Assembly (NCBI GenBank): GCA_014730275.1
Contig: WJIL01000004.1
Coordinates: 1-40,210 of the forward strand
DNA: 40,210 bases
Origin: Candidatus Lokiarchaeota archaeon
GTDB taxonomy: Archaea > Asgardarchaeota > Thorarchaeia > Thorarchaeales > Thorarchaeaceae
Reading direction: 5' to 3'
The position numbers and the translations under genes were made by a program. Below, piece after piece: positions 1,318-29,076 of the stretch. The notes under the pieces were generated by a model that was not told the origin of the DNA, did no database searches, and was given only the letters and a program-made list of their open reading frames with translations. The first letter of the stretch is position 1; each line of letters starts with the position of its first letter.

Positions 1318-2958
1318 CTATATTTCGTACGTGTCTCCGCCGCCTTTTCCGCGAACGAGTCTCACTATGTTGAAAACAGCACCCAATCCAACTACGCCAA
1401 GTGCGATCGCTGTGTACGGCCAACCATCCATCAATCCCTGCGAGAACAGAGACCCAATATCTGATCGAACCACAACACTCTGGCGGTCGGTGTCCTTTTC
1501 GTAGAGAGCCCCATCATACTCATACATTACAGAGGCACCAGTGAAGGAGTAACTCCCCTCGTTTGGGAACGTGACGGTATACTGCATCGTGCTGCTATCT
1601 CCCGGTTGAATTGAGGCTACAGATGTCTGTGTGTTGCCATCCACGCTGACTGAGCCATAGTAGCTTGCTAGACCGGAGTCATCTACTGTGATATTGGTGA
1701 TTGGTTGCTCTCCATTGTTGGTCACAGTAACTGTAACCGTGGTCGTACCGCCAACTGCAACCGACCGAGGGCTAAAGCTCCTCGAAATCGTCACATTAGG
1801 CGGGAAGTCGTCACTCTCAAAATTGAGGACGTAATCAGAGACTGTTCCAATGCCGGTAGCATTCCACATCACGGTCTGGGAGGTGTTGTCGTACATACTC
1901 ATACCGGCAACATTAGGACTGAAACCCGTGATATTGCTCGTCGTTGGCATGTTGGCTACAACGACTGAAAGCCCTTCTGGAAGTGGGCTGAAATCGTCAG
2001 GAGATCCAACGAGACTTGATAATCTTAGTTCCGTATCTCCAAGTACAATCTGTTGCTCACCAACATAACCTGCTGCAGCAATAGCGATTGGCCCTGTGAC
2101 ATTCCCGAAGGGATTTTGGGCTATTGCAAACTCTGGTAGAGTGGTGGGCTGAGATGCACCTTCGAAAAGACTCACCAGCTCTCCGATATCTGGGATAGCT
2201 AACATCCCAGCAGCAGAACCTCGCACATCAGTAAAGACCGATTGGTCAATTGAACCCAGCAGTCCCTCATTAGATAGACCATCCAATACAGCTGAAACCG
2301 CATCATCGAAGGGGTTTGATACCTGATCCAAAAACACGTTGATTGAATCGAATGGCAAGGTAACATTCTCTTCTTCTGGGAACGTAGATTCGTCTATTCT
2401 GAGATTGAGAAGCTCAGCGAAATTAAATCCAAATCCATCTGGACTGGACAGGTGGTTACGAACCGCGTTCATACGGCTTTGAGCTACCGAATCGTCAAGA
2501 TTCACGTATGCCGCGAACATCAAAGTGAATTCGTCACCGAGTAAATCAGTTATCTGACCAGGATCGAAACCCCCATTGAATTGCGAAGGAGTCAACCCAT
2601 CCCCATTGCCTCCCCCACCGGTCATTTCTGAAAAACCGATAAGGTCGAAGACATAATTCAAGAATTCACCCTTTGTTGCAACCATAGCAACAGCAAGGCA
2701 ACCGTCATACATGTCATCTTCAATGGCAAGCGCATCTGATGGAAGGCCAAGCTGTCCATAGACAAGGCGAGGTGCTCCTTCCTCATCAATGCTGCTTAGC
2801 AAGATTTCAGCTCCTTCGCCTAGAAGCTCACCAATGATATCTTCTGGGTTTTGAGCCGGAGCGAAAGCCGGCGACGTGCTGGCTGCTGCGACTACTGATG
2901 GAATAACCAGAAACGCTACTATGAAACTAATAGTTATGATTTTACGTTCTACTCTCAT
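1318..2958 (-). CDS. Secreted, membrane-anchored surface protein with a CARDB/DUF11-like domain
   Basis: A 546-residue protein of unknown function. Residues 7-26 are a signal peptide. Residues about 390-495 form a beta-sandwich of the CARDB/DUF11 kind (NGEQPITNITV, followed by alternating beta strands and an EGSYSFTG segment). Residues 515-535 form one membrane helix followed by basic residues, so most of the protein should lie outside the cell. Residues 40-370 are Asn/Asp/Gly-rich and I do not recognise a fold. The next gene downstream in the same orientation starts past a terminator; upstream, 12 bases separate it from the membrane protein at 2971, so the two are probably co-transcribed and may act together. 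Confidence 0.7.
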   Translation of the reverse strand: MRVERKIITISFIVAFLVIPSVVAAASTSPAFAPAQNPEDIIGELLGEGAEILLSSIDEEGAPRLVYGQLGLPSDALAIEDDMYDGCLAVAMVATKGEFLNYVFDLIGFSEMTGGGGNGDGLTPSQFNGGFDPGQITDLLGDEFTLMFAAYVNLDDSVAQSRMNAVRNHLSSPDGFGFNFAELLNLRIDESTFPEEENVTLPFDSINVFLDQVSNPFDDAVSAVLDGLSNEGLLGSIDQSVFTDVRGSAAGMLAIPDIGELVSLFEGASQPTTLPEFAIAQNPFGNVTGPIAIAAAGYVGEQQIVLGDTELRLSSLVGSPDDFSPLPEGLSVVVANMPTTSNITGFSPNVAGMSMYDNTSQTVMWNATGIGTVSDYVLNFESDDFPPNVTISRSFSPRSVAVGGTTTVTVTVTNNGEQPITNITVDDSGLASYYGSVSVDGNTQTSVASIQPGDSSTMQYTVTFPNEGSYSFTGASVMYEYDGALYEKDTDRQSVVVRSDIGSLFSQGLMDGWPYTAIALGVVGLGAVFNIVRLVRGKGGGDTYEI

Positions 2959-2970
2959 CTTTTATCACGC

Positions 2971-3540
2971 TCACTCCTTTGGTCTTACTATGGCTCCGAT
3001 AATTCCCGCCACAATGACAGTAACTATCGGTGTGAATAGCCAAATCAGCAATGGCGTTAAAATGTTAGAAATATCTGGCCCTGAGCCACCGCTCGCTGCT
3101 ATCATAGGAATAATCTCATCAATAGCTGACTGAACAAGGGGTACGCTCAGAACATCAGTTATTGATGTGCCCTGAGGAATTGGCGGAAGTGTTCCCAGTT
3201 CTATTCCAGACATGAATAGCTGATACGCACAGAAGACAGCAATGAGTACACAGCTCAACCATGTAACTATTCCAACAACAAAAGATCCCTTCTTTGTACC
3301 TGCCATGACGCCTCCAATAAAACCAGCTCCAGCCCATACGGCAACCATGGTGATGTTGTTAAGCGGATTAACGAGCAATATATTCACCATGACCAATAAA
3401 GGCCGAATGTAGTTTCCAAGCTGGGGAGCAAGCCATAGCACAATTGTATTGTAGCCTTCGGGAAGCATAAACCAACCTACAGCAAGAACAATGCCTAGCG
3501 CGGCAAGCCAACCGAAGTACTTCGATCCGAATGTGCTAAT
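2971..3540 (-). CDS. Four- to five-helix membrane protein, probable non-AUG start
   Basis: A hydrophobic protein of unknown function with helices such as TMVAVWAGAGFIGGVMAG, GIVTWLSCVLIAVFCAYQLF and a C-terminal LIWLFTPIVTVIVAGIIGAIV. The first ATG is at 3468 (165 residues), but the same frame stays open upstream to a stop near 3573 and encodes YFGWLAALGIVLAVGWFML, a natural first membrane helix that the ATG would cut in half. A strong GAGGAGG (plus-strand 3550-3556) sits upstream, with no ATG, GTG or TTG at a useful distance. The ATT at 3540 (9 bases away) or the ACG at 3543 (6 bases) are the likely starts. If a weaker site is used, the ATG at 3468 remains possible. Confidence 0.65.
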   Translation of the reverse strand: MSTFGSKYFGWLAALGIVLAVGWFMLPEGYNTIVLWLAPQLGNYIRPLLVMVNILLVNPLNNITMVAVWAGAGFIGGVMAGTKKGSFVVGIVTWLSCVLIAVFCAYQLFMSGIELGTLPPIPQGTSITDVLSVPLVQSAIDEIIPMIAASGGSGPDISNILTPLLIWLFTPIVTVIVAGIIGAIVRPKE

Positions 3541-12417: not shown

Positions 12418-13803
12418 CTATTCTACGGCAAACGGAATATCATCCTCCAGATAAACTTCCGCTTCTCCTTTAACTGGTTGCCTTACCTTCAGTAACAGCA
12501 GTATTGCTACAACAAAGAAAAGAAGAATAACCAGCATAGCAGCCATGTGTGCCTCTATTGTAAGTGATGGCAACTGCTGTGGATTCACCAAGAGCAGCAC
12601 TGATCCGTATACAAACGGTCCCAGTATAGCAGCGAATTTTCCGGTGAGGGCATAGAACCCATACATCTCCGTCTTTTTCTCCTCAGGAATGAACTGTCCA
12701 AACATACTGCGTGCTGTGCTTTGTGATGAACCCATGCCAACACCCGCAATCATGCCAACAATCCACCATATTGTCTGACCAAATCCGACAAACAAATACG
12801 CTATCAATAAGGCTGCAATCCAGATGAACAAGGTAGAGATCAGCGTTTTTTTCGTACCGATTCTATCAGCAATCGAACCGAAAATGAAGGCACCTGGTAT
12901 AGCTGCCAATTGCGTTACTGCGAAGAAAACGAGCGTCATTGTTGTATCGAAAGCATAGACGGCAGCACCGAAGATGGCTGCGTAGTAGATAACTGTCGTT
13001 ATTGCATCACTGAATAAGAAGTAGGCTACAAGGAATAATGGAAGTCCTTCGTAGTTTCGTATCTGTCTCAGTGTATTTGCCACCCTTCTGAAACCGACTC
13101 TTGCAATTCCGATATCCTCTTCTCCAGGAAGTTTCTTCGCTGGACGGCTTTTCAGCATGATGAAGCTGGGAATAGAAAAGACCAGGAAAAACAGGGCACT
13201 TAGAATGAAGGCATAGGTGTATGGGAGACCATAGACGAAGGTCGTAACCAACGCTATCAAAATTGTAGCCATGGCACCAACATATCCAGCAGCAAATCCA
13301 TACCCACCGATACGGCCAATATTCTCTTCAGTTGAAATTTCGGGCAACCACGCGTTATAGAATGGCAGGGCGCCCTGAAAGCCAATATTTGCTATGATGA
13401 ATATCAGCCATGCCCATACCCAGATATCCAGTCCCAGCACAGGTGGAAAACTGAAAGGTCCTGACTCTGTAGGAAGGATCGGCGGCAGGAAAATCATCAT
13501 GGCTGTAAATATGATGCAGATGCTTGTATAGAAGCCCATGAATTTCTTCTTGGATCCTCCAAAGTCAGCAATCGCTCCAAGCACTGGTGAGCTCAGTGCT
13601 ATGACAATCATCGTTATGCTTCCAGCATATCCCCACATGGCGTCTCCAAGCGTTTCATTTCCAACGAGAAGACGGAAATATAGGGGGAAAAGGGCCGTTA
13701 CTATCAACACTGTGAAACTCGTATTGGCAAGATCGTAGAGATACCAGCCAACCCGTTCTTTTCGGTCGGTTGGCACCTTTTTTGTTGTTTGTTCATTACT
13801 CAT
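12418..13803 (-). CDS. MFS transporter of the UMF1 (YxiO/Atg22-like) type
   Basis: A 461-residue protein with about 12 membrane helices. The opening GWYLYDLANTSFTVLIVTALFPLYF matches the UMF1 family (usual form WALYDWANSxF), and the second half contains the repeated MFS loop FGSIADRIGTKKT. Bacterial and archaeal members are uncharacterised exporters or facilitators, and the fungal relative Atg22 exports amino acids from vacuoles, so the substrate is open. I chose the ATG at 13803; 43 residues in frame upstream would cover the promoter and its palindromes and are not coding. A TTTATA element lies about 55 bases upstream. Confidence 0.85.
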   Translation of the reverse strand: MSNEQTTKKVPTDRKERVGWYLYDLANTSFTVLIVTALFPLYFRLLVGNETLGDAMWGYAGSITMIVIALSSPVLGAIADFGGSKKKFMGFYTSICIIFTAMMIFLPPILPTESGPFSFPPVLGLDIWVWAWLIFIIANIGFQGALPFYNAWLPEISTEENIGRIGGYGFAAGYVGAMATILIALVTTFVYGLPYTYAFILSALFFLVFSIPSFIMLKSRPAKKLPGEEDIGIARVGFRRVANTLRQIRNYEGLPLFLVAYFLFSDAITTVIYYAAIFGAAVYAFDTTMTLVFFAVTQLAAIPGAFIFGSIADRIGTKKTLISTLFIWIAALLIAYLFVGFGQTIWWIVGMIAGVGMGSSQSTARSMFGQFIPEEKKTEMYGFYALTGKFAAILGPFVYGSVLLLVNPQQLPSLTIEAHMAAMLVILLFFVVAILLLLKVRQPVKGEAEVYLEDDIPFAVE

Positions 13804-13884
13804 ATGATACACTCCATCTAGCGGGTAGTCTATACTTACCCACGACCAAGTGGGTATAAATTGCACATGCAATTGTATCATATG
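13801..13884. promoter_or_regulatory. Nested palindromes over the MFS promoter and start codon
   Basis: Three inverted repeats are nested here. The outer pair CATATGATAC (13801-13810) and GTATCATATG (13875-13884) is perfect over 10 bp and its first arm covers the MFS start codon. Inside are TACCCAC/GTGGGTA (13837-13843, 13850-13856), and ATTGCA-CA-TGCAAT (13860-13873). The minus-strand TATA-like box TTTATA overlaps the junction of the two inner repeats (13856-13861). This looks like an operator region for a repressor; the outer arms could also pair in RNA only if transcription starts further upstream than the TATA box implies. Confidence 0.55.
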
Positions 13885-14022
13885 CATTGCCCTTCCTAGT
13901 ATTATCTCTACTGATTTTTTGACAATCAACAAATATTGTAAGCAGATATCAAGGTGAAATCATAAATAAGAAATTCAACTTGGATGAGCGCCGAGTCTTG
14001 ATATAATCCATTTCTTACAGTT

Positions 14023-14717
14023 TTAGGAACTGCCTATTCTTGAATCGCCATATTGTCGCTTCTTGAAGTACTCAATGGTAAGAATAGATACCACTGTTGC
14101 TGCTGCAACAGCCGCAAACAAAGGAAGAAACCTGCTCAATGCCCTAAGCAAGATGAGATCCAACGGCGTATCTTCAGGATATTTGACGATGACACAAACA
14201 GTATCCTTGACAGTATTTCCTTCCGAATCATACAGAATCAATGTGTATCTATAGCTACCGACTTCTAATCCATCAATATTAAAAGTAATGGCAGATCCAT
14301 ACCAAGAACCAGCCTTGATCAGTGTACGCATACCGAAGACTTTGAATGAATGGGCGTCCCAGTCCCACGCATTCCAGATGATTGAATTCCCCGTAGTATT
14401 CCAGAAATACGAGATATTATACAGATGCTCAACAACCGGTTCTTCCCGATTAAAGGCAAAGGGATGGTCATCAGTCCTTGAAGTAGATAGGGATTTTTCG
14501 GGGTTCCATTTCCTTCAAAACCTTGTTTTTCAAAATCACAATCATTTTCTACGACGATAGATGCATGTTCAACGTAAGATGAGACAGAATGGGATTTGCG
14601 TTCTGCTTTGCTCAGAGCTGCAGACCTAGATACAGGATTATCACTATCATTTAGAAATAGCAGTCCTAAGATGAGAAGAACAAGTGCCACTTTATTTACT
14701 GAAACTCCATCCATCAT
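14023..14717 (-). pseudogene. Internally deleted and frameshifted NosD-like gene
   Basis: Two adjacent reading frames make one broken gene. The N-terminal part, in one frame, has a signal-like segment and CDFEKQGFEGNGTPKNPYLLQ, matching SDFSEQGWPGSGTLEDPYIIQ near residue 60 of the intact neighbour at 14851. Near 14470 homology jumps to another frame, reading TDDHPFAFNREEPVVEH and later NTTGNSIIWNAWDWD, matching residues about 901-940 of the neighbour. It then continues to the anchor helix. So about 830 residues of beta-helix are missing and the frame changes at the junction. The leader GGATGGAGTTTC is kept, but the base after it no longer gives an ATG. Programmed frameshifting is possible but less likely. 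Confidence 0.75.
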
Positions 14718-14850
14718 ACACTATGCATTGTGTTTGTAACCAAAAAAACTTTCAGCGCCAAGCAAACAGGCAGATATTGTTATCTTTGTTGATTTCTTCC
14801 ATAGTATGATTCTACCATTTGATATGAAATGGCAGGCTTGTACTGGAAAT

Positions 14851-17800
14851 CTAATCTTCTACGGGATATTTTTCTTCAAAATAATCAATGGCGAGTATGG
14901 ATATCACTGTCACTGCTGCCAAAACAGTCATGATTTGGAATAACCACCGCAAAGTTCCCATAGGAAGGATGCCTGGTGTCATATCGGGTGGATACTTTAC
15001 AACCACCTCAACAGTGTCTGTCGCGAAGTTGTTTTCTTGATCACATACAATTAGCGTATATCTGTGAATCCCTACATCAAGTCCGTTAATATCAAGAATA
15101 ATGGATGAACCATTCCATGAACCGGACAGAATAGGTGTATACCCGTAGAAGATTCTGTATGATTTGCAGTCCCAGTCCCAAGCAATCCAATTCAGATAAT
15201 GTCCAGTTGTATTGTAGTAATACTCTACATCGTTTTGGGGAGATAGGACTGGCTTTGCCCGGTGAAAGTCGAATGGATGTTCATCTATACTCCCTGCCGT
15301 TCCCTCTATGGAATAGATACCCCCAGAATAACCAGCCCAATAGTTGCCAAGTTTGTCCTTTTCCCAGATGTTCGAGTCACCATCATCGAATCCGTCAGAG
15401 TGTGTGTTGAACCCAAGGCGATTCAAGTAGATCTGATTGTTTGAACTACCTTCTTCTAGATTCATCCCATATCTCTGGTTATAGGCAGCTACGTTCTTTG
15501 ATAGTACACCTTCTCTAAGATGCAGCAGGAATCCGTCTTTCGAGTTATTGCGAGCAAAATTCTGAATTACATCACACGAATACGAGTATTGAATACTGAA
15601 TCCAGCATTGGAGTTGCTAGAAGCATTGTTGAGGCTTATGATGCACCCCGTACCCTCATAGATTGTAAAACCATCATATCCGTTTTCAAACGCGAAGTTT
15701 CCATTCAGGATACAGTTACGAGACAGAATAAGAAAGAATCCTCCTGATTCTCCTGAGATAGCATGGTTTTCTGTCAATGTACTGTCCGGAGAATGCGTAA
15801 CGAAGAAACCCACATATGTGCAGTTCAACGCCCTATTGCCCTTGAGGGTTGAATTTGGTGACTTTTCAATTCTGAATCCATAATATGAGCTTCCCGCAAC
15901 TGTGCTATTAGTTACGGTGCAATCTGTACAGTACGCAAGCTGAACATTACCGGAATCATTGAAGACTGCATCACTCACTGTTGTATTATGGCAGTTTAGA
16001 AGAAGTATTTGACCGAAATCGGTGCCATCAATTTTTGCATTTCGTAACTCTCTGAAATAACCCAACGGCTTTCCATTGACAGTGTTGTCAGCTACATCTT
16101 GCTCCCATTCTCTCAAACTACCAACTATAGAAAGAGAGTTTCCGAAGAGGCTATTATTTTTGACAGTACCATTGGCACAATATGCTAGATGGATTCCCTG
16201 CTTCGAATTAGCGGTGATTCGGTTATCAATCAGCTCAAATCCATCAACCATATCCACAAATATGCCATGCCCACCATTGTTCTCGATAGTGCAATCATCT
16301 AAGCAAGGATAATCAGAATCGTCCAAGTAGAAACCGTGATCAGTATTGCCATTTGCGGTATTGTTAATGTAGGTACAAAAATGGGAACCCCGCGAATAGA
16401 ATCCATATCCTGAAGTATAAGTCGCGTAATTGTGCTTCAATATGCAATTCTCAGAGTAGAATAGATGATAGGCAGCATACGTGGAGCGAGTTACATTGTT
16501 ATTGGTTAGATTACACCCGGGAGAGTATGCGAGTTGAATTCCTATTGAAACATTAACAAACATCGCATCCATCACAACGACATTTCTACAATTGACAAGG
16601 ACAATCTGTCCGTAGAACCTGCCATTCAACACAAAATCTTCCAAATCCACGAAATAGCCAAGGCTTCTCCCATTTACGGTGTTTCCTCTGATTTCGTGTA
16701 TCCATTCGTTCATGTTAGATGCGGCTAGTAATAGCCCGTTTTCTATGAAGATATTGTCTTCCAGAACGCAAGTAAAAGATTGTGCTAGAATGAACCCATT
16801 CTCATTCTCGGCAATGGTGTTTGCAGTAAACGTAATATCTCGACACACACGTACATGAAACCCGATTTCATTCTTGCTTGCCACATTGTTTTCCGTTACA
16901 GTATCATCGGTGTATCTCAAATCAAATCCGTATTTACTATGTGACACGGAATTATCAGTCAATGTGCATTGTTCACAATCACTTAGGAATACTCCCCTGT
17001 TTGAGCTATTCGTAATCATGTTGTCGCTTATTACGCAAGAAGTGCAACCCTGTAGTTTGAAAGCTAGATTCGAATTGGACATTGTATTACCCGTCAAGTC
17101 GCAGGTAGAGCAATGTCCAAGCTGAATTCCCCCACCTTGAGAGAAGTTTCCGTCGGCAACACTGATATCGGTACAATCTGCTAGAATGACCTCACCATAG
17201 GAGCTCGCATCTATATCCTCACTGTTTATGCTTCTGTAGTATTTCACAGGTTTTCCGTTGAGTATGTTTCCTGATATATCATGCAGCCAATATGAAACAC
17301 GAGAGCCATCCAATCTAATATCATTGTCAACAAGTGTGTTGTTAATAACTTCACAATTCTCTGATTTTAAGTAGATACCGCATTCAAGGTTGCGGCTTAC
17401 AGTATTATCGGTGAAAGAACAGTACTGACAGTACAGCGCATCGAAACCTGCAAACAAGTTCCTTTTCGCGGTACTATGCATAACCTGGCAGTTCTCACAG
17501 AATGATAGTAGAAATCCTGCCTCTGAGTTCCCTATCGCTGTATTGTTGATTAGAATGCAATCGCGTGAAGAGCTTATGAAAACACCCCGAGCGTGGTCCC
17601 TAATCAGGCAATCTTGGATGATGCCATTCTCCACCTTGTAGAAGTAGATTCCGTTGGAGAGGGATTCAGTATCTGCTGATATAGTGCAGTTCCTTATTTC
17701 GAAGTAAGCTGTAGTGTTCCGGATTTCGATGCAGGTGTAGTCGCTACTAATGACCAAGTCCTGAATGATATATGGATCTTCCAGAGTGCCACTTCCGGGC

Positions 17801-17985
17801 CAACCTTGTTCTGAGAAATCCGAGTTGTCGTTTATCAGAATCCGTTCATTATCATTCTCGGATATAGCCAAAATTCGCTGATTTCTAGGAGTTTTCCCGC
17901 TTTTCACTATGAAAATATGAGCAGTTAGAGTCGATATAACTAGAAGTAATCCCAAAACAAATGATAATCCGGTCAATCGTTTCAT
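14851..17985 (-). CDS. NosD-like right-handed parallel beta-helix surface protein
   Basis: A 1044-residue protein: signal peptide at 6-26, a start module SDFSEQGWPGSGTLEDPYII at 55-74, a long run of beta-helix coils (about 75-880, repeats such as NCTISxNT and GFxLxxCxxCxLTxNxxxxN), a beta-sandwich at about 910-997 and a membrane helix at about 1015-1034. Three larger insert modules recur about every 195 residues (232-298, 427-493, 627-693), each with a W-x-H/Q-D/E start, GNTVNGKPLGYF, FGQIxLxNC and IQLAYCxxC. Many coils carry CxxC. NosD-like domains often bind carbohydrate or serve adhesion; there is no nitrous oxide reductase gene here, so a copper-maturation role is not supported. GGAG lies 6 bases before the ATG. 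Confidence 0.85.
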   Translation of the reverse strand: MKRLTGLSFVLGLLLVISTLTAHIFIVKSGKTPRNQRILAISENDNERILINDNSDFSEQGWPGSGTLEDPYIIQDLVISSDYTCIEIRNTTAYFEIRNCTISADTESLSNGIYFYKVENGIIQDCLIRDHARGVFISSSRDCILINNTAIGNSEAGFLLSFCENCQVMHSTAKRNLFAGFDALYCQYCSFTDNTVSRNLECGIYLKSENCEVINNTLVDNDIRLDGSRVSYWLHDISGNILNGKPVKYYRSINSEDIDASSYGEVILADCTDISVADGNFSQGGGIQLGHCSTCDLTGNTMSNSNLAFKLQGCTSCVISDNMITNSSNRGVFLSDCEQCTLTDNSVSHSKYGFDLRYTDDTVTENNVASKNEIGFHVRVCRDITFTANTIAENENGFILAQSFTCVLEDNIFIENGLLLAASNMNEWIHEIRGNTVNGRSLGYFVDLEDFVLNGRFYGQIVLVNCRNVVVMDAMFVNVSIGIQLAYSPGCNLTNNNVTRSTYAAYHLFYSENCILKHNYATYTSGYGFYSRGSHFCTYINNTANGNTDHGFYLDDSDYPCLDDCTIENNGGHGIFVDMVDGFELIDNRITANSKQGIHLAYCANGTVKNNSLFGNSLSIVGSLREWEQDVADNTVNGKPLGYFRELRNAKIDGTDFGQILLLNCHNTTVSDAVFNDSGNVQLAYCTDCTVTNSTVAGSSYYGFRIEKSPNSTLKGNRALNCTYVGFFVTHSPDSTLTENHAISGESGGFFLILSRNCILNGNFAFENGYDGFTIYEGTGCIISLNNASSNSNAGFSIQYSYSCDVIQNFARNNSKDGFLLHLREGVLSKNVAAYNQRYGMNLEEGSSNNQIYLNRLGFNTHSDGFDDGDSNIWEKDKLGNYWAGYSGGIYSIEGTAGSIDEHPFDFHRAKPVLSPQNDVEYYYNTTGHYLNWIAWDWDCKSYRIFYGYTPILSGSWNGSSIILDINGLDVGIHRYTLIVCDQENNFATDTVEVVVKYPPDMTPGILPMGTLRWLFQIMTVLAAVTVISILAIDYFEEKYPVED

Positions 17986-18050
17986 GGAAACTCCAACCTT
18001 TACGCATTACATTAGGAGATTGAAATAAGAAAAATCTTTCAGGACGCTGT
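17986..18050 (-). promoter_or_regulatory. Conserved leader and promoter of the NosD-like family
   Basis: Just before the start codon the minus strand reads GGTTGGAGTTTCC, and about 35 to 50 bases further upstream a T-rich block CTGAAAGATTTTTCTTATTT. The first block recurs as GGTTGGAGTTTC before the gene at 18075-21143, GGTTGGGCTTTCG before 21280-21807 and GGATGGAGTTTC in the pseudogene. GGAG within it is the ribosome site. The T-rich block has a close copy, CTGAAAGTTTTTTTGG, upstream of the pseudogene, and is probably the promoter region. Confidence 0.55.
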
Positions 18051-18074
18051 CTTGTAGTTTTGAATCAGTATCCA

Positions 18075-21000
18075 TTATTTACGATTTCTCTTTTCCAAGT
18101 ACTCCATACCAACCACCGCTGCCACTATTACGGCAGAAACAGCTCCAACAACAATCAACACGAGCTCCATATCTATCAAGTTTGCAGCACCAGGCGTATA
18201 TCCTGAGGGCCATTCCACTGTTACAAACACTGTATCTGTAGTTGTATGATTCTCCCCATCGCGAACAAGCACAGTAAAATTATACGTGCTAGGTGATAAA
18301 TCATGGTCAATGTTATGGGTTATGCGTCCAGAGGTGGATATCCCTGCAAGAACAATCTCAGGACCCCTGAAGATACTGAAATGCATAGGTTCCCAGTCCC
18401 ATGCTTGCCAAATAATAGAGTGACCAGTAGTATTCGAGGGATATGACATATCCGGTGGATGGTTTATCACAGGATAGTCATGGTAGTACTCGTAAGGATG
18501 TCGATCGATACTGTAATCGGTACCAGGTATCGAATATGATCCGCCACCATCATAATTGCTGTAGTAGTTACCAAAAACGCCATTATCCCAAGAGTTTGCA
18601 TTCCCATCATTCATAGCGTCAGCTTCAGTGTTGAAGCCAATACGATTCAAGAAGAGAACGTTATGATAACTGTGCTCATCCAGAAATATGCCATATTTCC
18701 CATTGTGGTTCGCTGTATTTTTTGTTATGTTGCTCTCAGAAATGCGTAGATGAAACCCATCTTTGAGATTCTCTGAGGCTGTATTCCTTGTCACCAAGAG
18801 GTTTTCCGAATATGCTATACCGAACCCGTCGTGGGAATTATGGGTAGCTTCATTATCGTTCAACGTGCTATCATTGATGATTTCAGCTCTGAAGCCGTCA
18901 AGAGTGTTGTTACTAGCCGTATTGCCAGCAATGGTACAACTAGTCAAACTCCTTACATAGAAGCCATTTCCCGGATTTGAATCTGCGAGATTATTTTGCA
19001 GTCCGATGCCAGTTGCACCTCGAAGCGAGAATCCGCCAGCCAAACAGTCGCGAGCAATATTGTCGGATAATGTAGAGCTGATACATTCTTGCAGATAGAA
19101 ACCATAGTAGGAACTGCCTATTACAGTAATCTGCCTGAGGGTACATTGTCCACAGAAGGCGAGCAGAATGCCTCCAGATGTCCTATCCAGAGTTCCATCT
19201 TCTATCGTTACATCATTGCAGTCGACGGCAATTATCTGACCAAATTGATCCGCATGGAGTACCATGTTTTGTACTTCTTTGAAGTAACCCAACCGCGCAC
19301 CGTTGATGGTGTTCCCCGACATCGTATGAATCCAGTTGACGCGGTCTCCACTAATGTGAAGTGCATTATTTAGAAATGTGTTGTCACGCAGGGTACAGTT
19401 GTCAGAATAGATAAGAGAGACGCCTTGTTCCAAGCTGTTGGATATTGTGTTGTTTATGAGGGCGCAATCTTCAGCCAGAAACACAGCAAAACCTTGGTCC
19501 GTATTATTGTTCGCAGTATTATTCTGGAGTACACAGGAGCTAGATAGTAGTAACCCGAAACCAACGCCCTTGCCACTAATTGCGACGCTTTCTGCAATTG
19601 TACAATTGTGAGAAGAGAACACGAAGTAACTATATTGCGATGCATTATAGACCGAGATATTGGATAGTGTACAGTTCACTGAATAGGCAATTTGCAGGCC
19701 TGCTGCAACGTTTTCGTAAACTCCTCCCTCGACAGTAGAACCGCTGCAATTAGCGAGAATGAGTTGTCCATATGCTGCACCATCAATATTGCTGTGGTTT
19801 GTGTTCCAGAAGTAGCCAAGATCCTTCTCATTAATGGTATTCCCTCCCGCGTCGTGCCGCCAATGTCTCTTCTCATATCCAGAAACGAGAAGACTATCAT
19901 CCTCGAATGTGTTGTTTACAAGGGTACAGTCAGCAGATTGGAGAAGCTGGAAACCACGTGTATTTCTTTCAATATTGTTCTGTGTGAAGACATTATTGTC
20001 TGAAGAATAGACATGGAACCCAGCATAATTCTCTGAAGCTGTATTGTTTGCAAATGTTGTATTGTCACTATCTGCAATGTCGAAACCCCATGAATTAGCC
20101 GCCGCGATGTTATTCATAAGTGTACAATTGTCACAAGAATCCAATTCAAATCCATGGTATGTGTTTGAAGCGCTGCTTCCATTCAATACACAGCCCTCCG
20201 ATTCTAAGAGTGTGAAACCCGTGTAGCTGCTGCTTGCTGTGATGTTTGTAATTGTACAGTTCGAGCAGTATGCCGCTGTTAACCCTCCTGATCCGCTGAC
20301 AAACACACCATTTGAGACAGTTACGTTGGAACAGTTCGCAAGAATGACTTGCCCATAGGAACTGGCATCTACGAATAGGTCTCGTGTATTCTTGCAATAC
20401 TTGAGTGATTTTCCATTTATCATATTCCCTGAGAGGAAATGCATCATGTACGATAGCTGCCACCCTTCAAGTTGAAATCCGCAACCAATAAGCGAGTTAT
20501 TGAAGAAATTGCAGCTCCTCTTTGAGAGTACAAAGAAGCCGTAGCGGGAATTATTCACAGCTGTGTTGTTAGAAAATGTAGATCCTTTGGAATCTTCAAT
20601 AAAGAAGCCATAAGAAGTTGTGCCGGAAACAATGTTGTTTTCGATTGTGCAATTCTCCGCGCTCCGAAACTCAAATCCGATGAATGAATTTTGCACAGCT
20701 GTGGTATTGGTTATGCTGCAGTCTTCACAACCTACAATAGAGGCAGCAGATGAGTGATTTTCAATCATGCAATCATGTAGATTGCCATGTTCGACTCGGT
20801 AGAAAGTGACACCAGGTCCAGATTGCCCGTCCATACCAGAAATGAGACAGTTTCTTATTTCGAAATGGACTGACGTGTGAGAAATCTGAATGCTAGGAGA
20901 ATCAGCCGTGATATTCAACCCCTCAATGAGATATGGATCTTCCAGAGTGCCACTCCCGGGCCAACCTTGTTCAGTAAAATCTTGATTACTAGAGATAACA

Positions 21001-21143
21001 ATCGGACCATGTTTATCATAGGACGAAGGTTGCACAATATTGCGTTCATATGTTCCAGAAGACATCTCTTTGGTTCCCGTATTTGGGATTGACAGAAAAA
21101 GCATCAGTGCAAATACAAATCCAAACAGCATCCTCTTCTTCAT
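18075..21143 (-). CDS. NosD-like right-handed parallel beta-helix surface protein
   Basis: A 1022-residue paralogue of the protein at 14851-17985, with the same order: signal peptide at 4-22, start module QDFTEQGWPGSGTLEDPYLI at 54-73, beta-helix coils with three insert modules (about 228-300, 426-492, 603-668), a TNNxxGxxxYSIPGTDYSID segment ending at 880, beta-sandwich at 893-978 and a membrane helix at 990-1011. Coils are rich in Asn and Ser and carry several CxxC (CEDC, CSNC, CDNC, CGQC). It should be exposed on the cell surface, held by the C-terminal helix. Function is unknown beyond likely carbohydrate binding or adhesion. Confidence 0.85.
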   Translation of the reverse strand: MKKRMLFGFVFALMLFLSIPNTGTKEMSSGTYERNIVQPSSYDKHGPIVISSNQDFTEQGWPGSGTLEDPYLIEGLNITADSPSIQISHTSVHFEIRNCLISGMDGQSGPGVTFYRVEHGNLHDCMIENHSSAASIVGCEDCSITNTTAVQNSFIGFEFRSAENCTIENNIVSGTTSYGFFIEDSKGSTFSNNTAVNNSRYGFFVLSKRSCNFFNNSLIGCGFQLEGWQLSYMMHFLSGNMINGKSLKYCKNTRDLFVDASSYGQVILANCSNVTVSNGVFVSGSGGLTAAYCSNCTITNITASSSYTGFTLLESEGCVLNGSSASNTYHGFELDSCDNCTLMNNIAAANSWGFDIADSDNTTFANNTASENYAGFHVYSSDNNVFTQNNIERNTRGFQLLQSADCTLVNNTFEDDSLLVSGYEKRHWRHDAGGNTINEKDLGYFWNTNHSNIDGAAYGQLILANCSGSTVEGGVYENVAAGLQIAYSVNCTLSNISVYNASQYSYFVFSSHNCTIAESVAISGKGVGFGLLLSSSCVLQNNTANNNTDQGFAVFLAEDCALINNTISNSLEQGVSLIYSDNCTLRDNTFLNNALHISGDRVNWIHTMSGNTINGARLGYFKEVQNMVLHADQFGQIIAVDCNDVTIEDGTLDRTSGGILLAFCGQCTLRQITVIGSSYYGFYLQECISSTLSDNIARDCLAGGFSLRGATGIGLQNNLADSNPGNGFYVRSLTSCTIAGNTASNNTLDGFRAEIINDSTLNDNEATHNSHDGFGIAYSENLLVTRNTASENLKDGFHLRISESNITKNTANHNGKYGIFLDEHSYHNVLFLNRIGFNTEADAMNDGNANSWDNGVFGNYYSNYDGGGSYSIPGTDYSIDRHPYEYYHDYPVINHPPDMSYPSNTTGHSIIWQAWDWEPMHFSIFRGPEIVLAGISTSGRITHNIDHDLSPSTYNFTVLVRDGENHTTTDTVFVTVEWPSGYTPGAANLIDMELVLIVVGAVSAVIVAAVVGMEYLEKRNRK

Positions 21144-21279
21144 GAAACTCCAACCTATATGCAGTTCAAGATATCAAAGAATAGAGAAAAGCTTTGCCTA
21201 GGTTTCAAAGTGGATTCTTAGCGCTCAGCAGATTCTTTGTTGAATAAAGGCCAAGAGAATTGAAATACACAAGAGTTTC

Positions 21280-21807
21280 TTATTTTCGTCTATCCATGTA
21301 CTCTGCAAAGAGAACTGCAACCACTGTTGTTCCAGCGACAAGAATGATCGTCCCTTGTAAACCGAAGCGCAATACTCGAATCCTCGCAAGATCAGAAGCT
21401 AGGAATTCTTCAACTTCAACTGTGACAGTATCGACCGCTGCCTTACCATCTCCATCGAACAGAATGACAGTGTATTGGTAAGTGCCCAAATCCAGCCCGT
21501 CTATATCAATTGAGATTCGGCTTTCCTTCAATCTGGAAGATTCCACAAGTTTGTTATTCCTGTACACTCTATAGTATTCCAAAACAATTTTCTGCACCCT
21601 CCACGTGATTGAATGCCCTGTTGTTCCATGCCTGTAAACCACATCGCTTGGATGATTTAGAATCGACGACGTCTCATTCAAAAGAGAATATCGATTATCG
21701 AGCTCCTCCACTTTCTGAACTGGGGATGTTGTTTGGGAATGCCTGCCACTCATCAGAGCAACGAAGACTATAACGAGAATGGCGATTTGGAAAACATTCC
21801 TTCTCAT
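21280..21807 (-). CDS. Short surface protein: anchor module of the NosD-like family without the beta-helix
   Basis: A 175-residue protein from the ATG at 21807 (a TTG at 21822 would add 5 residues). It has an N-terminal signal or anchor helix, then HPSDVVYRHGTTGHSITW...YRVYRNN...ISIDIDGLDLGTYQYTVILFD, the same beta-sandwich as at the C-termini of the NosD-like neighbours, then a C-terminal membrane helix (GTIILVAGTTVVAVLFAEYM). The frame is intact, unlike the pseudogene at 14023, and the leader GGTTGGGCTTTCG is related to that of the large genes. It may be a stand-alone partner or a stabilised deletion product. Confidence 0.7.
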   Translation of the reverse strand: MRRNVFQIAILVIVFVALMSGRHSQTTSPVQKVEELDNRYSLLNETSSILNHPSDVVYRHGTTGHSITWRVQKIVLEYYRVYRNNKLVESSRLKESRISIDIDGLDLGTYQYTVILFDGDGKAAVDTVTVEVEEFLASDLARIRVLRFGLQGTIILVAGTTVVAVLFAEYMDRRK

Positions 21808-21978
21808 CGAAAGCCCAACCAAAATTCACATGTAAGATTTCCCATTTCCAAATAAGAATAGTCTTGTAGCAGTTCTGCTCTCAACCAAGATTCATACAAT
21901 TCTATGGAAAAAAGGACTCATTTGCCAAACTTGAAAAGGATTAGAATACAAACAATTGTTAAGAAGGAGAAGGAAGTT

Positions 21979-22764
21979 ATGGCTGAGAATGATTGTGAAG
22001 ATTATGAAGAATTAGGAGCGCCTGACGCAAAGATTGTGCAGATGAAAGATATTGAGATGGATGATCCCTTACTGATTTGTGGTTTTCCCTCAGCTGGTCT
22101 AGTTGGTTCAATCGCCGCTAACACTATTATTGATCAATTCGAAATGGAACAGATTGCGTTTCTTCGTTCTAAGCATATCCCATCAGCTGCAGTATTCTTT
22201 GAAGGCAGACTGCGGCACCCATTTCGCATCTACGCAAGCAAGGACAAGAACTTGCTCGTCGCAACTACCGAGCTTCCAGTTAACAAATCCGGCCTCTATG
22301 AAGTAACATCATGCTTGCTTGATTGGGCAAGAAGCCTCGGATCTACAGAAACAGTAGTCCTCGATGGTATTCCGGTTCGAGGAATTCCCTCGGATAGGAA
22401 AGTCCTATATGCAACTGAAGAGGAAAAAATGGCTGAATTCGAGAATGTCGAAGAGCTAGAGATTCTTCAGAAAGGAGTTATCACAGGGATTGCTGGCTCG
22501 ATACTCAAAGAGACACTTACCCGGAAAATGATTGGCTTCACTTTCTTGACTCCTGCAGTTAGCGTGGTTCCCGATCCAAAGGGTGCCATCAAGCTGCTAC
22601 ACGTTGTTGACAAGCTATATGATATTGACATCGATACAAGCGAACTCGAAGAGAGTGCTGAGCAGATCAAGCAGAAAATGCGTGAGATGGCTGAGCAGGT
22701 CGAAGGCATGCGGCAACAGCAAGATGAAGCCGGAAAAACTGGCTTCCAGCGTCTCTACGCTTAA
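21979..22764 (+). CDS. PAC2-family proteasome assembly chaperone/activator with C-terminal HbYX
   Basis: A 261-residue cytoplasmic protein of the PAC2 family. The core begins DDPLLICGFPSAGLVGSIAANTII and includes HIPSAAVFFEGRLRHPFRIY and VVLDGIPVRG; a coiled coil follows (about residues 215-252) and the protein ends RLYA. The final Leu-Tyr-Ala fits the HbYX motif (hydrophobic, Tyr, any) with which archaeal PbaA/PbaB and proteasomal ATPases dock on the 20S alpha ring. I chose the ATG at 21979, preceded by GGAGAAGGAAG; an in-frame ATG at 21904 would add 25 basic residues unlike family members. Confidence 0.85.
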   Translation: MAENDCEDYEELGAPDAKIVQMKDIEMDDPLLICGFPSAGLVGSIAANTIIDQFEMEQIAFLRSKHIPSAAVFFEGRLRHPFRIYASKDKNLLVATTELPVNKSGLYEVTSCLLDWARSLGSTETVVLDGIPVRGIPSDRKVLYATEEEKMAEFENVEELEILQKGVITGIAGSILKETLTRKMIGFTFLTPAVSVVPDPKGAIKLLHVVDKLYDIDIDTSELEESAEQIKQKMREMAEQVEGMRQQQDEAGKTGFQRLYA

Positions 22765-25858: not shown

Positions 25859-28351
25859 ATGCTCAAAAGAAAGCACGTCATATTCTTATCTCTCATCATG
25901 TTGATGAGTTTAAGTTATATTCCATCGGAAGTATTTTCCGTTGATAATTCAACGGTAGATAGTTTGATTGGAACAGCAACCCCGGCTGAAATCATGCCGC
26001 GTAATATACGAGTAGGAGTCTATGATGAACCAAACAAGACCGCCCCAGATTGGGCATATGGTGGAGATGTGAATAACGACTCTAGTGACATCGGGCAAAT
26101 ATTGGAGGATGCAGGGTATGAGGTACATCTCCTAACATTCCAGAATTTGCTTGACCACGAACTGGTTCTTTCGGAGTTCGACGTTTTCGTAATCCCTGAT
26201 AATCTTCTGCGGGAAAATGTAACCATGCTTGCAAAATCATTCTGGTTATCTGGCGGAGGGATTCTTAGCATCGACAGCGCTGCCAATTTCCTAGGCTACG
26301 CTGGGATTATTCCCTATGAATCCGAGGGAGACCACGGATATGGCACGTACTGGTCGCATCAATCATCAGATATTCAAGCGGTAGCGAATCTTCATCCTGC
26401 TACGAAGAGCTTTTCGGTCGGAGATGAAATCAACATTACTTCGCTTTTGTGGTCAACCTTTGATTGGTCTGCAATCTCAAGCACAACTGAAGCATCCGAG
26501 TATGTCAAGCTTCTCTACGCTGAAGGAGATTCCAATAAAGCAACAGGAATAGCATACGAGCCCGAGCTCAGAGGTGGTAGAGTCGTGCATCTCCCAGGCT
26601 ATGCCCAGAACTTGGATGAAGATGTATTCATTGTTGAGGAAATGGAGTCTATGTGGATAGATGCTATCGAGTGGTTATGCCCGATTCCAAAATCTAGGAT
26701 TGCATTCGATATCTCCCATCAGCCAAGGCTAGGCTTTGACCCTTGGGATGAGGGGATGTCATATCCGGACTATCTTGTGGACTTCAGAGATCATCTCGTA
26801 ACTCATTCGTTTACAGTGGAGAAAATCTACCCCTCCTCCGAAGGCAATCTTACGGAAGACAATCTTGCGCCTTATGACATCCTAATTCTCACATCCCCAG
26901 ATTACAACTACACCAATTCGGAGAGAAGTGCTGTTGAGGCTTGGATTGACTCTGGTGGGTCTCTACTGGTTCTTGGAGAAGCCTTGGACCAAATTACCTT
27001 TGGAAAAGCAAGCGAACAGGTAAATTCCATGATCGCTCCCTTTGACATCGAAATCACACAAGGTTACTCGTCAGTAGTAGGTGATATCCTTTACCACCCC
27101 ATAAAAGATAGCGCAGAGACCGTCCAATTTGCTTCTGGTGGATACATAAACATTACAGGCGATGCGTTCCCATTAGTTAAGAAGAATGGGAATATCCATA
27201 TTGCTGCGACTGAGTATGGTAATGGTCGAGTAATAGTTTCAGGAGATATGAACTGGGCTGACAAGAACAATTTAGCAAGCGAAGACAATGAAGTTTGGGC
27301 ACTCAATATTGTAAATTGGTTGGGTTCAGTTGGAGCAGACACATTGCTATATTGTGACGATGTGATGGCAGATGATTTCTACGAAACACCTGCCGCCAAA
27401 GCATTGAATGAACTCAGAATAAACTACTTCTTGGTAACCTATGACTTAGGTCTCAATATTACTCTGGATGAGTATGAGTGGGAACATGTGATAGTTGATG
27501 CTCCCAACCGTTTTATCGACGAATCTATTCCCTATTTGATAGAACACGTTGAAAACGATGGCTATCTAGCAATGCACAACTTCGATTTCGACAATCCAGA
27601 TTACGAACCTTTGTTGAATTTGATGGGTGTCTCTTACGCTGATGATTACCCACTTGATGATGATTTCTATGTGTGGGACCAAGAGCATCCTGTCTACGTC
27701 AATCCAATCGATTTGGGTGAGACTTCATTTTCAATTAGCGGGCCATATGGTGATGACGGCGACCTGTTCCATGTCTTCGATAATGCTACTGCTCTAGGAG
27801 GTTCTAGTTCCCTTCCGCAGAATAACAAATGTGCACTTGCAGTTCGTAAGGATAGGAAGACCATCGCTATGGGTTACATATTCGATCAGATTGTTGGAGA
27901 CAGTGACGACTCAGCTTACCTTGATAGCTTCGAGCTATGGTTGAATGTCGTAGCCCATCTCTTTGCCCCAACGATTGATTCACCGGCGGATGTATCGTTT
28001 ACTGAAGGAGAAACAGGAAACAGTATTACCTGGAACCCTGTGAGCTATCATCCGGCTGAGTATGTTGTCAAAAGGAACGGAACAATTGTAGATTCAGGTA
28101 GTTGGGACGGCGGGCCCATCGAGGTCAATCTCGATACTCTGGAAGCGGCCAACTACACGTATGTTATCACCGCGATAGACTGGACAGGAAACAAAGCTAG
28201 TGATGTTGTCTTTGTTGAAGTAGAACCAGGTGCCGGCGGAGGAATACCTGGACTACCCGATAAGATATTCGGTATTGATACCTGGATAGTGCTTGCAGCG
28301 GTAGGTGCGGTAGTTCTGATTCTGATAATCGTACTTGCTCGAAGGAAGTAG
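25859..28351 (+). CDS. Large surface protein with three amidotransferase-like domains and a C-terminal anchor module
   Basis: An 830-residue secreted protein. Signal peptide 5-27. Three repeated alpha/beta domains of the class I amidotransferase-like type (as in DUF4350/ThuA-like proteins) follow at about 48-275, 278-490 and 495-700, each with a strand-DVFVIPD or DILILTSPD element and a WLSGGG or WIDSGGSLLVLG turn. I see no nucleophilic Cys at the usual elbow, so they are probably binding domains. Residues 703-790 are a beta-sandwich (DSPADVSFTEGETGNSITW) like that of the NosD-like cluster, and 808-827 is a membrane helix followed by ARRK. GGAGGA lies 7 bases before the ATG. It stands between the two ATC-hydrolase-like genes. 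Confidence 0.75.
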   Translation: MLKRKHVIFLSLIMLMSLSYIPSEVFSVDNSTVDSLIGTATPAEIMPRNIRVGVYDEPNKTAPDWAYGGDVNNDSSDIGQILEDAGYEVHLLTFQNLLDHELVLSEFDVFVIPDNLLRENVTMLAKSFWLSGGGILSIDSAANFLGYAGIIPYESEGDHGYGTYWSHQSSDIQAVANLHPATKSFSVGDEINITSLLWSTFDWSAISSTTEASEYVKLLYAEGDSNKATGIAYEPELRGGRVVHLPGYAQNLDEDVFIVEEMESMWIDAIEWLCPIPKSRIAFDISHQPRLGFDPWDEGMSYPDYLVDFRDHLVTHSFTVEKIYPSSEGNLTEDNLAPYDILILTSPDYNYTNSERSAVEAWIDSGGSLLVLGEALDQITFGKASEQVNSMIAPFDIEITQGYSSVVGDILYHPIKDSAETVQFASGGYINITGDAFPLVKKNGNIHIAATEYGNGRVIVSGDMNWADKNNLASEDNEVWALNIVNWLGSVGADTLLYCDDVMADDFYETPAAKALNELRINYFLVTYDLGLNITLDEYEWEHVIVDAPNRFIDESIPYLIEHVENDGYLAMHNFDFDNPDYEPLLNLMGVSYADDYPLDDDFYVWDQEHPVYVNPIDLGETSFSISGPYGDDGDLFHVFDNATALGGSSSLPQNNKCALAVRKDRKTIAMGYIFDQIVGDSDDSAYLDSFELWLNVVAHLFAPTIDSPADVSFTEGETGNSITWNPVSYHPAEYVVKRNGTIVDSGSWDGGPIEVNLDTLEAANYTYVITAIDWTGNKASDVVFVEVEPGAGGGIPGLPDKIFGIDTWIVLAAVGAVVLILIIVLARRK

Positions 28352-28551: not shown

Positions 28552-29076
28552 TCACTTCTTGCATTCAAGGAGTATGGGATCTACAGTCTGCCACGACCCA
28601 TCTTTGCTAGCGAATGTTTTCCGATCATCCTCTGTCGTAGGAACTACATCGAAGATACAAACTTCGTCGCCGCACGCCTCACAGGATATGTGAATCATTT
28701 TCTCCTCGGGATTAAGTGCCATGCTCTTGGCTGCATCAACATAGCAATACATATGCCCTACATCTAGAGCATCTTGTTGTTTGAACACCTTGCAAAGTGT
28801 ACACCCCCGAACGAATGTTTTGCCGTTTTTCGTCTTACCTTTTTCCTCGAATAGACCCAGCTCAGTTAAATCTGGTAATCCTTTCTCTACTCTTTCGGCT
28901 ATTCTATGTCCATAATCTATGATTGCTTTGGTTATCAATTCCTTTCCCCGATCTTCACCAAATTCATCAATCAGGACTTTTGAGAATGCAATATGCAAAA
29001 GTGCTAGACGGGCACGAGCTCCAACAGCGGCTTCCAATGCTTCAGCAATTGGTATCATCTTTCGATGTTCGTTCAT
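28552..29076 (-). CDS. L-2-amino-thiazoline-4-carboxylate hydrolase-like protein
   Basis: A 174-residue protein resembling the ATC hydrolase family. The N-terminal helical part (ARLALLHIAFSKVLIDEFGEDRGKELITKAIIDYG) is followed by a Cys-rich domain with Cys92, Cys95, Cys111, Cys132, Cys135 and Cys140 (GCTLCKVFK, YCYVDAAKSM, SCEACGDEVCIFD). The known family member opens the thiazoline ring in cysteine synthesis, but many relatives are uncharacterised, so I would not name the substrate. The Cys arrangement could also hold a metal. The N-terminal half is shared with the truncated protein at 25359. Confidence 0.6.
   Translation of the reverse strand: MNEHRKMIPIAEALEAAVGARARLALLHIAFSKVLIDEFGEDRGKELITKAIIDYGHRIAERVEKGLPDLTELGLFEEKGKTKNGKTFVRGCTLCKVFKQQDALDVGHMYCYVDAAKSMALNPEEKMIHISCEACGDEVCIFDVVPTTEDDRKTFASKDGSWQTVDPILLECKK

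Follow-up and report, generated by a model that had tools for sequence, protein, structure and literature searches.

A variable site of giant NosD-like surface proteins in a probable Asgard archaeon, probably shaped by turnover of whole genes

Between conserved genes for an MFS transporter and a PAC2-family protein, a draft archaeal genome carries what we regard, with a probability of roughly 70%, as a hypervariable surface-protein site that evolves by the birth and death of whole genes and in which the beta-helix of the giant proteins is not a cassette. The DNA analysed here (the window) is one entire contig of 40,210 bases from a 3.64-Mb draft genome (G000) that is 99.5% complete and in which actin is matched at 440 bits (E=5e-132). 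Together with a TRAP-beta-like gene, this match makes it very probable that the archaeon is an Asgard. The interval from the MFS gene to the PAC2 gene holds, on the minus strand throughout, a short gene of 175 amino acids, two giants of 1022 and 1044 amino acids (g1022 and g1044) and a broken giant gene (Table 1). The original prediction had described two intact NosD-like genes of these lengths, an intact 175-residue gene and a pseudogene that had lost about 830 residues with a frameshift at the junction; all four are recovered here, the broken gene lacking approximately 822 codons relative to g1044 and changing frame where the two pieces meet.

Table 1 Features of the surface-protein site and its flanks, by position in the window
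Feature	Position	Strand	Description and evidence
MFS transporter, left fixed flank	12418..13932	-	94% amino acid identity to congeneric counterpart
Broken giant gene, 3' piece	14023..14478	-	Different frame; linker, sandwich, membrane helix and tail; 44% to g1044 residues 899-1039
Part of broken gene absent from congeneric genome too	14155..14700	-	There, leader joined directly to last ~45 codons, with 3-bp TCA in common
Broken giant gene, deletion junction	14469..14476	-	Frame change; at most 3-7 bases in common
Broken giant gene, 5' piece	14472..14717	-	Signal peptide and first beta-helix turn
g1044, giant surface gene, 1044 aa	14851..17985	-	Same architecture as g1022; Pfam NosD E=5e-81 and AlphaFold2 model
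61-bp patch of g1044, partner of 20921-20981	17760..17820	-	DNA alignment
g1022, giant surface gene, 1022 aa	18075..21143	-	Signal peptide, NosD-type beta-helix, sandwich, membrane helix; Pfam NosD E=2e-71 and alignment
61-bp patch of g1022, EQGWPGSGTLEDPY	20921..20981	-	DNA 90% identical to g1044 17760-17820; possible small gene-conversion tract
Leader of first giant (g1022)	21144..21279	-	Homologous to leader of congeneric giant; coding sequences behind both saturated
Short gene, 175 aa	21280..21807	-	Signal peptide, flexible linker, beta-sandwich, membrane helix, without beta-helix
PAC2-type proteasome assembly chaperone family protein, right fixed flank	21904..22764	+	94% amino acid identity to congeneric counterpart

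Architecture of the surface proteins

Both giants fall within the Pfam NosD (PF05048)/Beta_helix (PF13229) superfamily, scoring 271 and 240 bits against a gathering score of 23.6. The AlphaFold2 model of g1044 comprises a signal helix, a beta-helix (residues 48-853), a sandwich (920-997) and a membrane helix (1009-1039), and that of the short protein consists of a signal helix, a disordered linker, a seven-strand sandwich with pLDDT of at least 90 in most of its blocks, and a membrane helix. Foldseek places the helix near alginate epimerases, phage tailspikes and NosD, and the sandwich near fibronectin-III-like and PKD-like modules. The giants carry between 21 and 32 N-glycosylation sequons, or 2-3 for every 100 residues. 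Their modelled architecture predicts anchored single-pass surface proteins, and a role as an adhesin or as a virus-exposed surface would be in keeping with it.

The giants share with NosD, the nitrous oxide reductase maturation protein (7osf, 7o0y), the right-handed beta-helix fold and the Pfam NosD domain, but they differ from it in being membrane-anchored and in scoring far below the cut-off of the copper-chaperone subfamily TIGR04247 (137 and 84 bits against 300); neither Pfam nor NCBIfam detected nosZ, nosF or nosY neighbours among the window genes scanned. Similar non-canonical ‘NosD’ proteins have been described in methanogens (PMC12904285). In the genomes compared here, the ‘NosD’ label can mean an anchored surface protein rather than a copper chaperone.

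The sandwich and membrane helix are not particular to this locus and recur in some 20 more of the genome's proteins. Genome-wide, many proteins bear this stalk, with between one and five copies of the sandwich. One of them is orf830 of the window (25859-28351), which has 830 residues and DUF4350/GIFT-like similarity; it ends in the sandwich and membrane helix of the surface proteins and is 95% identical in the congeneric genome. Two further loci (L104 1-11016 and L121 1803-7723, on contigs C95 and C137) hold tandem arrays of ~940-955-residue proteins with the same stalk, in which NosD motifs were not detected; these arrays are a second expanded surface family. Elsewhere in the window, positions 1318-2958 encode a protein, one region of which is TRAP-beta-like (translocon-associated) and DUF11/CARDB-like, and an Rfam search returned no match at gathering thresholds.

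Relatedness of the genes and comparison with a congeneric genome

The two giants can be aligned end to end at 37% amino acid identity (38% in the helix and 34% in the anchor, with synonymous sites saturated in both), and the short gene matches the C-terminal ~128 residues of each (E ~1e-16). The 5' piece of the broken gene (14717 to ~14472) matches g1044 residues 45-78 and reads as a signal peptide followed by the first turn (DFEKQGFEGNGTPKNPYLLQGL), while its 3' piece, in a different frame, reads DDHPFAF and onwards into the sandwich and membrane helix. A tree of 33 anchors, drawn from two genomes, sets the local clade against 27 others; in it, the anchors of the window and their congeneric counterparts form one clade (support 96/82), bearing out the earlier proposal that a beta-sandwich and membrane anchor is common to the four loci on one strand. 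Within the best tree, the 3' piece of the broken gene is the sister of g1044.

Comparison within the genus spans two genomes, G000 and G001, both metagenome-style drafts. The site is present in G001, reversed on contig C12, with flanking proteins that are mostly 86-99% identical. Its MFS-to-PAC2 interval contains one giant of 1070 amino acids (g1070), a short gene and a broken-gene remnant; conserved flanks thereby enclose a surface-gene content that differs between the two relatives, as in a variable island. An assembly collapse in G001 is an unlikely source of this difference, as the giants have no more than 33-37% of their residues in common and the G001 contig runs unbroken through the site. 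The more distant G002, from the only other genus in which both flanking genes were found near each other, has no NosD gene at the site. Among named genomes, neither g1044 nor the MFS protein retrieved any relatives. Another genus has a NosD-like gene of 1461 residues at a distance of ~3 kb from a PAC2-family paralogue that is 53% identical to that of the window (L099 7135-15240; G019 contig C169), and a neighbourhood of PAC2 and NosD genes may be recurrent across genera.

The giants have diverged far more than comparable genes. g1070 matches g1022 at 35% identity and g1044 at 33%, whereas seven of the eight NosD orthologue pairs recognizable between G000 and G001 retain 71-93% identity (the eighth, 49%). 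Synonymous differences (pS) reach ~0.8 among all three giants, compared with 0.54-0.59 in the adjoining MFS, PAC2 and short genes. Given this saturation and the low identity relative to other NosD orthologues, g1022, g1044 and g1070 would most simply be different paralogues or imported alleles.

Identity between G000 and G001 falls into sharp blocks, with 93-99% outside and ~78-87% across the 10.9 to 22.85 kb around the island. Within positions 8650-29000 of the window, block edges lie near 10.9, 22.9, 23.95 and 25.3 kb, and the synonymous divergence of neighbouring genes varies tenfold, from 0.10 to 1.2. To judge from these alignments, the alternating blocks look like introgressive recombination between species, and the block carrying the island could have been exchanged between them; identity to G001 varies along other loci as well and not at the island alone. 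A small ATC-hydrolase-like gene (28552-29076), 61% identical to its congeneric counterpart, adjoins a gene that is 95% identical.

Explanations for the variation

The original prediction suggested that the beta-helix is a cassette removable from between a constant start and a constant anchor, and that the locus could represent surface variation by recombination. Surface variation is compatible with what we find, a local family with a common anchor at a site that differs between species, but the removable helix finds no support. In favour of a helix that is excised and inserted, one anchor is common to helix-containing, helix-deleted and helix-free members, the deletion in the broken gene took out almost exactly the helix, and the giants have in common, at the fixed start, a 61-bp patch of 90% identity. 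This patch encodes the conserved first helix turn, where 14 of 16 codons are the same in g1022 and g1044; with a significance of ~0.04 after rough correction, it may weakly point to a small conversion tract, or some exchange between neighbours. Outside the patch, the DNA of the two giants is unalignable, and the near-identical donor and expressed stretches of vls or pil systems are not found. A shuffled helix would differ in age from its own anchor, so the equal divergence of the two regions counts against shuffling; the three giants gave no sign of a mosaic pattern (P=0.12 in a runs test, P=0.21 and 0.72 in window tests), and as site patterns are not clustered we reject helix exchange between paralogues. 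The deletion ends had been expected to fall at repeated DNA, yet they have only ~3-7 bp in common, and in the corresponding neighbourhoods of the intact paralogues the longest common word (5-6 bp) does not exceed the shuffled mean of 6.3. This lack of repeats counts against repeat-mediated excision, which we reject, and points to what is probably an ordinary illegitimate deletion. The deletion is, moreover, out of frame, and G001 retains only the leader of the broken gene, directly behind the stop codon of the giant and fused through three common bases to the last ~45 codons; the third gene is thus dead in both species, a case of decay rather than a switchable form. Pfam scans of the window genes tested found no recombinase. 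We therefore give cassette switching almost no credence, and, by the features tested, the locus is not an antigenic cassette system of the vls or pil type. Elsewhere in the genome, two intact NosD genes are likewise preceded by a decayed NosD fragment with stop codons (L110 ~2760-3090, contig C103), a counterpart of which was not found in the congeneric genome.

Two further explanations concern individual genes. If g1070 were an extremely fast-evolving orthologue of g1022, nothing would have been replaced and G001 would only have lost its second giant. The two are reciprocal best hits, their leaders are homologous (66% identity, z=8.3) and their sisterhood in the anchor tree is not rejected (AU test, p=0.18), whereas a pairing of g1044 with g1070 is (p=0.0115). 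However, the best tree places g1070 outside the group of the short gene, g1022, g1044 and the broken gene, and pS between g1022 and g1070 is 0.82, saturated, against ~0.55 in the adjoining short, PAC2 and MFS genes; because synonymous change should not quicken with protein change, this saturation leads us to consider a fast orthologue unlikely. The short gene, for its part, is 67% identical in amino acids between G000 and G001 with dN/dS of 0.22, and its protein changes several times faster than those of its neighbours at equal synonymous distance. These values indicate what appears to be an old, separate orthologous gene under purifying selection, rather than a product of recent loss. Its ancestor could nevertheless have been a giant whose beta-helix disappeared in the distant past and which was then retained in a new role; this would make helix loss a real but rare evolutionary event here, and it is compatible with turnover of whole genes. 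Purifying selection on the gene and the nesting of the short pair among the giants in the best anchor tree (97/76) speak for such a descent. Against it, a tree grouping all giants is not rejected (AU p=0.21), another genus has a small protein of sandwich and helix that stands alone, with no NosD gene beside it, and nothing of the giants' first helix turn is recognizable in the short gene. We hold this origin to be tentative, somewhat short of even odds.

Under the reading that we favour, turnover of whole genes, the proteins of the site would combine a signal peptide, a long NosD-type right-handed beta-helix rich in sequons, one Ig-like sandwich stalk and one membrane helix, and would vary through the birth and death of entire genes. 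New genes would arise by tandem duplication and be differentially lost via illegitimate deletions, and whole alleles might be imported via recombination in the flanks. The driver could be selection on the exposed surface, for binding of glycans or partner cells or for escape from viruses.

Known systems and significance

Methanosarcina reportedly possesses surface proteins that combine beta-helix and PKD domains. These resemble the giants in joining a beta-helix to Ig-fold stalk domains and in occupying multigene loci, but they are said to be mosaic proteins, often with several PKD repeats, whereas each giant has one sandwich and mosaicism was not detected among them.

The cell-wall island GI1 of Haloquadratum walsbyi includes ‘major variable surface proteins’, some with a parallel beta-helix and others with Ig-like domains (PMC4535781), and shares with the present site a fixed chromosomal position and variable large surface proteins. 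Its genes are under purifying selection, recombination reaches into its flanks and virus escape has been proposed for it (PMC4535781). Here, purifying selection is seen in the short gene, the giants being saturated at synonymous sites, and the identity blocks around the island may correspond to flank recombination, with the variation along other loci noted above. GI1 nevertheless belongs to another phylum and spans tens of kilobases with many gene families and mobile elements, in contrast to ~7 kb and one family, and variation within a population was demonstrated there, whereas our comparison is between the genomes of two species.

VARTIG of Thermococcales, a hypervariable membrane-associated island with a large Ig-fold protein of family arCOG07710 (PMC8416519), is comparable in layout: its small genes align to the C-terminal end of the large one, and it contains pseudogene fragments (PMC8416519); PKD surface-protein loci are noted in the same work. 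Its description mentions no beta-helix, and its C-terminal Ig domain is the most variable part (PMC8416519), in contrast to the beta-helix architecture here and to a C-terminal divergence that equals that of the helix. By the features tested, the locus is not a member of VARTIG. That it should instead be an Asgard counterpart, a site dedicated to diversification where species swap whole giant ectodomains by recombination at the leader or first helix turn and at the flank or anchor, with viruses or partner cells exerting strong selection, is in our judgement a long shot.

Literature searches on surface variation in Asgard archaea found nothing. Asgard archaea are the closest known prokaryotic relatives of eukaryotes, and variation of their surfaces is almost undescribed. 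The site is small and well bounded, which allows the turnover of surface genes between sister species to be tracked gene by gene, and it is a candidate target of pressure from viruses or symbiosis.
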